DNA from: Bacteroidetes bacterium GWF2_33_16
Lineage (GTDB): Bacteria; Bacteroidota; Bacteroidia; Bacteroidales; UBA12077
Reading direction: 5' to 3'
Length of the DNA stretch: 64,000 nt
Assembly: GCA_001768565.1 (NCBI GenBank)
Contig: MEOE01000006.1
Span: 1-64,000 of the forward strand
Each line of letters starts with the position of its first letter. Positions within the stretch are counted from its first letter, which is position 1. A program made the translations under genes and the position numbers. Shown here in pieces: positions 45,265-46,675 of this stretch. The notes below the pieces were generated by a model that saw only the letters and a list, made by a program, of their open reading frames with translations, was not told the DNA's origin and made no database searches.

Positions 45265-45339
45265 GGGAGATTAGCTCAGCTGGTTCAGAGCACCTGCCTT
45301 ACAAGCAGGGGGTCACTGGTTCGAACCCAGTATCTCCCA
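45265..45339 (+). tRNA. tRNA-Val (anticodon UAC)
   Basis: A 75-nt cloverleaf: acceptor GGGAGAT/ATCTCCC, D arm containing AGCTCAGCTGGTTCAGAGC, anticodon arm CCTGC-CTTACAA-GCAGG (anticodon TAC) and T arm CTGG-TTCGAAC-CCAG. Discriminator A at 45339; CCA is not encoded. Followed by a Rho-independent terminator and then the GIY-YIG gene. Confidence 0.93.
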
Positions 45340-45345
45340 CAAACG

Positions 45346-45374
45346 AAGCAGTCAATAAATGACTGCTTTTTTTT
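45346..45374 (+). terminator. Terminator of tRNA-Val
   Basis: AAGCAGTCA pairs with TGACTGCTT around a 5-nt loop and is followed by T residues. The GIY-YIG start codon (45375) directly abuts the T-tract. A second copy lies at 45706-45733. Confidence 0.9.
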
Positions 45375-45647
45375 ATGAAAAAATTTCATCTATATATACT
45401 ACATTCAGGAACTTTAGATAAGTTTTATATTGGATATACATCAAATCTTATTGAAAGATTAAGAAAGCATAATTCAAATCATAATGGTTTTACAGGAAAA
45501 GTAAATGATTGGAAAATTGTTTATTGGGAGGAATTCTTTTCAAAAGAACAAGCTTATGCACGAGAGCGAGAGATTAAGAAATGGAAAAGCAGAGATAGAA
45601 TAAAAGAATTAATAAACAAATATGGTTCAGAGCATCCCGACTTTTAA
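45375..45647 (+). CDS. GIY-YIG nuclease-domain protein in a tRNA-linked repeat
   Basis: The 90-aa protein has a GIY-YIG core: the '[19 protein letters not shown]' segment (about residues 6-24) supplies the paired Y residues, followed by the conserved Arg (R29, in IERLRKH) and Glu (E55, in [11 protein letters not shown]). Small GIY-YIG proteins of this type cut DNA or are degenerate. The ATG sits at the end of the tRNA terminator T-tract, so expression would need readthrough or an own start. The last codons (SEHPDF and stop) are encoded by a tRNA-like sequence copied from the neighbouring tRNA gene. A broken second copy is located at 45734. Confidence 0.85.
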
Positions 45648-45699
45648 GTCGGGAGGGTCACTGGTTCGTCCCGATAGTTATCGGGACCAGTATCTCCCA
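45623..45699 (+). pseudogene. Partial, remodelled copy of tRNA-Val 3' part
   Basis: The segment matches tRNA-Val from the D-loop (TGGTTCAGAGCA) to the 3' end (TATCTCCCA), but the 5' acceptor strand and first half of the D arm are missing. The anticodon arm is replaced by TCCCGACTTTTAAGTCGGGA and the T-loop by TCCCGATAGTTATCGGGA. The first has loop TTTTAA reminiscent of a Lys-UUU arm. It cannot fold as a normal tRNA. It overlaps the 3' end of the GIY-YIG gene. Confidence 0.8.
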
Positions 45700-45705
45700 C
45701 AAACG

Positions 45706-45733
45706 AAGCAGTCAATAAATGACTGCTTTTTTT
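45706..45733 (+). terminator. Second copy of the tRNA-Val terminator
   Basis: The same stem-loop as at 45346 with a T-run one base shorter. It is part of the second repeat unit. Confidence 0.8.
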
Positions 45734-46675
45734 ATGAAAAAATTTCATCTATATATACTACATTCAGGAACTTTAGATAAGTTTTATAGGATCATGACGA
45801 AAGTTTGAGGATTTGAATTGTTAGACATAAATTTTAGCAAGTTTGTACAAGAAAAAACGAATATCTCTTGCCCTTCTTGAAGAATATATAAAAGCCTCAT
45901 TTTTAGTATTAAAGGATTCAGGGACGTTCATTCTTTTAATCAATAAATAAAAGCTAATTTAAAAAATAAATAAATTTTTTGTTTTAAAACTTTTTTGTTT
46001 TGATCCAAAAAAGTTACAAAAAATCCCGATAGCTATCGGGACAAGACAAAACGATACTTCCACGCTCTCTGTGATAAGCCAACAATTCCTGACAAAGTAA
46101 GCAAGCTCCTTTGTCGGAATTCTAATGCTTATCACATTCATACCGCCCAATGGCTCGTCGTTTTGTCATGCCTGTGCTCAATAATCCGCATATGATAAAT
46201 TTGTGTCAAAAATCAGGTAAAACTTTTGTGGGATGGCTCGGGTAAGCAACACTCAGTCTCGAGCTACAATAATTAATCAGAACAATAAATATTTCATCGA
46301 GACGACTTGTGTTGCGCTGAAAAACAGGTTTTACAATGATTTTAACAAATTTGTCAGTGGCGGAGACTTTCCTGCCTGCCGGCAGGCAGGTTTTGGTTCT
46401 TTTTTGTGTGGCTGACAAAAAAGAACATAATCTATTTGAACTTATCGGTTTCTATTTTGAGTTATTCTAGTTGAGCAAGAATTTGATGTTTTATGTTTGA
46501 TCTCATTTTGTTTCGAGGGTCTAGAATTCATGAATTAACCACCCTGAAATTATTGATTAGAAGTATTTTATTAGAATTATTTTCATATAAATCTAATTTT
46601 TTTTAACTCCCCAACTTTTCAATTTGATCCGTTTTATATTGGATATACATCAAATCTTATTGAAAGATTAAGAAA
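45734..46675 (+). pseudogene. Disrupted second copy of the GIY-YIG gene
   Basis: 45734-45788 is identical to the first 55 nt of the intact gene; 46631-46675 resumes it at its 48th base (GTTTTATATTGG...) through about 90 nt from its start. The remaining C-terminal coding sequence is absent. Between the two pieces lies an 842-bp insertion; the 8 bp GTTTTATA occurs on both sides, as expected of a target-site duplication. So it was a fragment when it was split. Confidence 0.85.
45789..46630. mobile_element. Non-coding 842-bp insertion with short inverted ends
   Basis: Flanked by an 8-bp direct repeat GTTTTATA (45781-45788 and 46631-46638). The ends begin GGATCA and, inverted, GGATCA at the other side, with further imperfect inverted similarity over about 22 bp (GAAAGTT/GAAAAGTT, GAGG/GGGG). 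No transposase-like reading frame exceeds about 70 codons, so it resembles a MITE or a decayed IS. It carries palindromes TCCCGATAGCTATCGGGA (about 46023) and CCTGCCTGCCGGCAGGCAGG (about 46371). Confidence 0.65.

Follow-up and report, generated by a model that had tools for sequence, protein, structure and literature searches.

What produces a chromosomal locus in which part of a tRNA gene, its terminator, and a small nuclease gene are repeated in tandem? The question arises from a 64,000-nt stretch of the genome of Bacteroidetes bacterium GWF2_33_16 (contig MEOE01000006.1; hereafter, the window, whose positions are used throughout). A first-pass annotation of the window had described a repeat with a 360-bp period (342 bp before two palindrome differences) and had proposed a GIY-YIG mini-element that targets tRNA genes and remakes the tRNA 3' end and terminator. 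Our analysis confirmed the tandem tRNA-Val/terminator/GIY-YIG repeat. We consider a minimal family of mobile elements that parasitizes tRNA genes through a homing-type route to be the most probable explanation of the sequences compared here (probability of about 0.6).

Anatomy of the tRNA-Val locus

All features of the repeat lie on the forward strand. An intact tRNA-Val(TAC) gene (45265 to 45340; ARAGORN; Rfam tRNA, 71.6 bits) is followed by a terminator identified from its sequence and by terminator comparison (GCAGTCA-ATAAA-TGACTGC plus a T run; 45348 to 45374), and the start codon of GIY-YIG gene #1 (45375 to 45647; 90 amino acids [aa]; PF01541, 5.5e-16) comes immediately after it. The duplicated unit (45281 to 45622; 342 bp) comprises the tRNA from the D loop onward, the terminator, and the nuclease gene, and TGGTTCAGAGCA occurs at both 45281 and 45623. 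The spacing is 342 bp ahead of the palindromes and 360/359 bp beyond them, in agreement with the period first described. The nuclease gene is the sole gene of the unit, which carries no integrase and no HUH/Y1 transposase. An Rfam search at the locus found no intron family, and the tRNA-Val gene is uninterrupted.

The second unit begins with a dead 3' part of tRNA-Val, which starts at the D loop (45623 to 45699; delimited by the repeat and by locus comparison). Sequence comparison shows that a hairpin, TCCCGACTTTTAAGTCGGGA (45635 to 45654), substitutes for its 17-nt anticodon arm and that a palindrome, TCCCGATAGTTATCGGGA (45669 to 45686), lies within its T arm. The D arm and the hairpin of this dead tRNA also encode the C terminus (GSEHPDF) and the stop codon of GIY-YIG gene #1. 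A second terminator (45708 to 45733), which repeats the first one minus one T, precedes the start of GIY-YIG gene #2 (45734 to 45788), which is identical to the start of gene #1. The segments 45368 to 45429 and 45727 to 45788 are 100% identical over 62 bp, and 45331 to 45429 differs from 45691 to 45788 by a single T in the T run, just as the earlier figure of approximately 100 bp of identity had it. The range given in the first-pass annotation stops at 45788, but the second copy does not simply end there: an insertion intervenes (45789 to 46630) before gene #2 resumes as a truncated remainder (46631 to 46675; sequence comparison). A hairpin located farther downstream (AAATCAAAAGGTTAGC..GCTAACCTTTTGATTT; 46681 to 46727) is possibly the displaced original terminator of tRNA-Val, given its likeness to the tRNA-Val terminator of locus L039.

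The insertion that splits gene #2 is an ISL3-related sequence of 842 bp, with termini GGATCA/TGATCC, an 8-bp target duplication (GTTTTATA), and no transposase gene, and it is separate from the tRNA element. Contigs C5, C7, C9, and C23 of this genome carry its relatives, and one relative in the genome surrounds an ISL3-family transposase gene (PF01610, 6e-47). Similar-looking sequences also lie beside tRNA-Val elsewhere in the genus (L028, L030, and L036).

The tRNA-Val(UAC) arm has a single match in the 4.3-Mb genome (scored as 100% complete), so this is the only tRNA-Val with a UAC anticodon that was found; a second tRNA-Val has the anticodon GAC. Two of the four other intact GIY-YIG matches in the genome also lie in tRNA contexts. 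At L002, an intact tRNA-Met is followed by a nuclease gene and then by a tRNA-Met 3' part starting from the anticodon loop. At L003, the arrangement is the mirror image of the window locus: a tRNA-Arg(TCG) 5' part, cut off at the anticodon and carrying CCTGCCTGCCGGCAGGCAGG in its D loop, precedes a nuclease gene and then an intact tRNA-Arg.

The TCCCGA..TCGGGA pattern has 38 matches per strand in the 4.3 Mb (some of them overlapping), three of which fall between 45635 and 46041. We rejected the view that the palindromes are ordinary genome-wide repeats that landed here by chance. Such palindromes also occur elsewhere in the genome (e.g., G000:C1:25028-25178), including two near other GIY-YIG matches (C2:8023 and C12:115397).

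Occupied and empty alleles

Comparison of the folC-tRNA-Val locus across relatives, both within the genus and beyond it, recovered occupied alleles (i.e., the window, G005, G016, G012, G013 with two stacked units, and G009), empty alleles (e.g., G007, G006, and G014), and remnants (G010, G003, and G018). The first-pass annotation had proposed comparing relatives with and without the gene. The GIY-YIG gene stands alone beside its presumed target tRNA, and both occupied and empty alleles exist. At two loci (L033 in G019 and L038 in G018), the orientation of tRNA-Val with respect to folC is the reverse of that in the window; at L033 it is still located between folC and a response-regulator/kinase-like gene.

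The terminators reveal the polarity of insertion. At the occupied locus L029 (G016), the live tRNA is followed by the terminator of the element (CAAAACCTCGG..CCGGGG). The one behind the dead copy, AGAGACTTCAGA..GGAGTCTC, is of the type found directly 3' of the tRNA in the empty locus L031 (G007) and in G017. At L037 (G013), where two elements are stacked, the outermost terminator matches that of the empty locus L036 (G006). Since the native terminator is located behind the dead copy, the tRNA 3' part and terminator at the live gene are supplied by the element itself, which bears out the remaking of the 3' end proposed at the outset. The terminator positions further indicate that the original 3' part and terminator were displaced downstream and that newer units lie nearer the live tRNA. 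By this logic, the 3' part of the live tRNA-Val in the window was probably brought in by the element. The anticodon arm of the live tRNA is identical in occupied and empty loci, indicating that insertion does not remove the presumed target sequence. Ten tRNA-Val loci free of GIY-YIG genes (L040, L041, L045 to L048, and L050 to L053) contained no partial tRNA copies.

Recurrence across Bacteroidota

The first locus set drew on 20 genomes from the genus plus 79 named loci in the species genomes of GTDB; the collection was scanned with Val-type proteins, and the set is therefore biased toward tRNA-Val. Within it, 85 of the 109 nonredundant high-scoring GIY-YIG loci had an intact same-strand tRNA at most 250 bp away, and partial tRNA copies were present at 81 of the 109. 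Only 3 of the 32 low-scoring GIY-YIG loci from the same genomes were near a tRNA. We also drew more evenly from the phylum, taking 296 high-quality genomes and again using a Val-type query, with a strict cutoff (so that other groups are undersampled); 51 genomes had a match, and 46 distinct loci were obtained. An intact same-strand tRNA lay within 250 bp at 37 of these loci (median distance, 54 bp), and partial copies of the tRNA were present at 35. The tRNA types were Val (8 loci), Asp (8), Ala (6), Asn (5), Arg(tct) (4), Ser (3), and others, and the association as a whole was seen at over a dozen tRNA types. Five of the nine loci that missed the distance threshold were inspected, and each has a dead tRNA piece adjoining the nuclease gene (L226, L258, L266, and L268 with a hairpin; L239 in degraded form). 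The two proportions (85/109 and 37/46) agree with the statement in the first-pass annotation that short GIY-YIG genes are common next to tRNA genes in the phylum. Its counter-scenario, a gene occurring without tRNA copies, is contradicted by the dead copies found nearly everywhere.

Near-identical tandem copies occur in the window and at L083, L205, L206, and L250, and a closed genome (G332) carries five 315-bp units at one tRNA-Asp. The alternative of an assembly duplication, which had been raised for the window, was rejected because the window copies differ from each other and because arrays are present in the closed genome.

No element matches were found in the phage and plasmid records searched. 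IMG/VR yielded one 36%-identical match and one hairpin match, and the contig with the latter also bears a tRNA with dead 5' copies. Among low-scoring or tRNA-less GIY-YIG loci, an Rfam search detected no other adjoining RNA genes, save a tmRNA gene at L133, directly behind which the GIY-YIG gene lies (L133:750-1350). Genes of another GIY-YIG group were seen amid GTCATTCC...GGAATGAC hairpin repeats and not beside tRNAs (L112 and L115).

The nuclease

The catalytic residues (Y7, Y18, G20, R28, H32, and E64) are 97 to 100% conserved in 156 tRNA-adjacent members, and dN/dS ratios range from 0.04 to 0.31 for pairs unsaturated at synonymous sites. The nuclease gene is under purifying selection. With a length of approximately 85 to 90 aa, the protein amounts to a GIY-YIG domain alone, and no DNA-binding part is evident in it; this counts against the homing reading. 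The solved structure nearest to the gene #1 product is the UPF0213 protein BH0048 (1zg2; 1e-7), followed by SLX1. Groups in the nuclease tree largely track the tRNA (i.e., Met, Gly, Arg(acg), and Val plus Arg(tct)), in a tree that is poorly resolved on an 84-column alignment; with the same limits, a tree test for transfer between lineages did not reject a single clade for the Val-type nucleases of the genus (p-AU, 0.858), which likewise counts against the homing reading.

These data bear on whether the arrangement is a passive product of recombination, in which slippage or unequal crossing-over duplicates tRNAs and the GIY-YIG genes merely hitchhike. The near-identical tandem copies described above are what ordinary tandem duplication is expected to leave. 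However, purifying selection and nearly invariant catalytic residues speak against a passive origin, as do the recurrence at over a dozen tRNA types and at most of the loci sampled across the phylum, the differences between element and native terminators, and the ten GIY-free tRNA-Val loci that lack partial copies. We therefore regard this explanation as improbable.

Dead tRNA copies and the replaced arm

The edges of the dead copies are concentrated at the anticodon arm. Among the dead copies of the first locus set, 74 of 113 5' copies stop at positions 28 to 30 of the tRNA, and 69 of 133 3' copies start at positions 44 to 46. The phylum draw left the left edge unchanged and gave a broader right edge; over both sets, 3' copies start most often at positions 44 to 48. 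A hairpin of at least 5 pairs is present at the anticodon-arm edge in 110 of the 120 copies that have such an edge, a count that includes a few intact tRNAs matched through a neighbor. It commonly reads TCCCGAY...RTCGGGA. Covariation is seen at the pair inside CGA..TCG (C-G, 45; T-A, 30; T-G, 1), with 57 distinct inner sequences among the 76 rows, which are related sequences and thus not counts of independent events.

The anticodon arm is the arm lost in the dead copies of Val, Met, Ala, and Arg(tct) tRNAs, where the covarying hairpin takes its place in upstream and downstream copies alike. Of the dead 3' copies of tRNA-Val, 94% keep the T loop and 0% keep the anticodon loop. In those of tRNA-Asp, the T loop is mostly lost, with TCCCGACTAGTCGGGA in its place in the sequences inspected, while the upstream copies of Arg(acg) consist of the 5' side only and have the palindrome in the D arm. 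The Val, Asp, and Arg(acg) patterns together indicate that the lost arm varies with tRNA identity. This arm-specific loss, with its covarying hairpin replacement, is new here. Neither the replaced anticodon arm nor the mirror-image upstream type, the dead 5' arrays, or the insertion splitting gene #2 had been recognized in the first-pass annotation.

Tandem arrays of dead tRNA 5' parts, in units of approximately 80 to 130 bp with a hairpin and without a nuclease gene, lie directly upstream of intact tRNAs at L143, L206, L227, and L274. At L178, L194, L153, L148, and L158, ARAGORN reports dead copies as tRNAs whose anticodons are odd (Met, Arg, Ile, Cys, Lys, or unknown); such calls are likely a source of tRNA misannotation.

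Could the locus instead serve the host, the nuclease acting on tRNA molecules or invading DNA and the dead tRNA acting as a decoy or regulatory RNA? A domesticated function would accord with purifying selection and with a hairpin stem that is conserved despite its variable inner sequence. Against it, the elements are patchy among sister species at one locus, with both remnants and complete absence, and the upstream dead copies have no 3' part. We find such a role doubtful.

Proposed mode of movement

According to the homing-type reading that we prefer, the element would enter one arm of a tRNA gene (the anticodon arm in tRNA-Val). Its left end would consist of a full replacement anticodon arm, the tRNA 3' part, and a terminator, such that the tRNA stays functional; the small GIY-YIG gene would come next, and then the hairpin, through which the element joins the original, now displaced 3' part of the tRNA and the native terminator behind it. 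The nuclease is predicted to cut an unoccupied tRNA gene at the target arm, and homologous recombination from an occupied copy, with the flanking tRNA as homology, would mend the break and thereby copy the element in. The same cut at occupied loci could generate tandem arrays. In the mirror-image form, the tRNA 5' part would be rebuilt and a dead 5' part left upstream. Edges at positions 28/29 and approximately 45/46 are those expected from a break in the anticodon arm and its repair with tRNA positions 1 to 28 and 46 to 76 as homology. Self-protection is the weak point of the homing model: only the dead copy has lost the arm, and the replacement probably renders that copy uncuttable. The hairpin, which homing alone leaves unaccounted for, may be a shield for the dead copy or a working part of the element.

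The second of these roles is central to a different explanation, i.e., hairpin-directed transposition, in which the GIY-YIG protein would recognize or cleave two element ends, the CCCGA hairpin and the tRNA arm, and the element would be excised and inserted as folded single-stranded DNA, much as in IS200/IS605 or REP-type systems except that the enzyme is of the GIY-YIG type. The hairpin does lie at the junction with the displaced half, and the same kind is found upstream and downstream and at several tRNAs, with a covarying stem and a variable inner sequence; moreover, GIY-YIG relatives include the structure-specific SLX1. At L106, a GIY-YIG gene (1477 to 1752) splits a protein-coding gene and has inverted repeats on its two sides (CCCCGTTAGATAA/TTATCTAACGGGG), which gives it the look of a minimal transposon. 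However, the palindrome sits in another arm, away from the junction, at the Asp, Arg(acg), and Ser loci, and two-sided homology suits recombination without any hairpin. We judge this route unlikely, if somewhat less so than passive duplication or a domesticated function.

Relation to known systems and significance

The closest precedent for tRNA homing is SegB, a free-standing GIY-YIG nuclease of T4/T6 phages that cuts within tRNA genes and drives tandem tRNA-segB amplification, probably via microhomology that the 3' end of its gene shares with the tRNA 5' end (PMC13096335). The elements described here resemble it in having a GIY-YIG gene that adjoins tRNA genes and in forming tandem tRNA-nuclease units; where SegB probably makes use of microhomology at the end of the nuclease gene, that end is itself tRNA sequence in the window element. 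Unlike SegB, the window-type elements are chromosomal, occur across a bacterial phylum without phage or plasmid matches, encode a nuclease of approximately 85 to 90 aa devoid of an evident DNA-binding part, and rebuild part of the tRNA and the terminator while leaving an arm-replaced dead copy. We class the element as a candidate variant of the free-standing homing endonucleases, one that is predicted to cleave tRNA genes.

Integrative elements with tyrosine recombinases also restore a tRNA gene with a carried 3' end and leave the displaced 3' fragment behind; here, by comparison, there is no integrase, the unit is approximately 340 bp long, a mirror form rebuilds the 5' part, and a hairpin replaces an arm. 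The UPF0213 proteins (BH0048, 1zg2; EF2693, 1ywl), which are the nearest solved structures, likewise consist of a single GIY-YIG domain. We know of no tRNA association for that family, and such an association is mostly lacking for the low-scoring GIY-YIG genes in the genomes studied here. Group I introns with homing endonucleases share the location in tRNA genes and the associated nuclease (PMC3984707), but the tRNA gene here is uninterrupted and has no intron match. IS200/IS605 and REP-RAYT systems differ in that their protein is an HUH/Y1 transposase rather than a GIY-YIG nuclease.

No published description was found in a literature search whose coverage left out most subscription journals and bioRxiv preprints; a paper on tRNA fragments (PMC9897764) makes no mention of GIY-YIG or Bacteroidota. 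A broader proposal, to which we give slightly less than even odds, is that these loci represent a class of selfish elements (approximately 300 to 400 bp) that spans the phylum and has not been described before; they would reside in essential tRNA genes, rebuild one half of the gene, and mark each displaced half with a conserved hairpin in place of the arm targeted by the nuclease, the hairpin-marked 5' copies that lack a nuclease gene being nonautonomous forms moved in trans.

If movement occurs as proposed, these would, in our judgment, rank with the smallest known autonomous mobile elements, and SegB-like tRNA homing would reach from phages to the chromosomes of Bacteroidota. The element occupies a single-copy tRNA gene without breaking it. 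Its dead copies account for the tRNA pieces that ARAGORN labels with odd anticodons, and the family is a source of small nucleases whose tRNA preference varies by sequence group.
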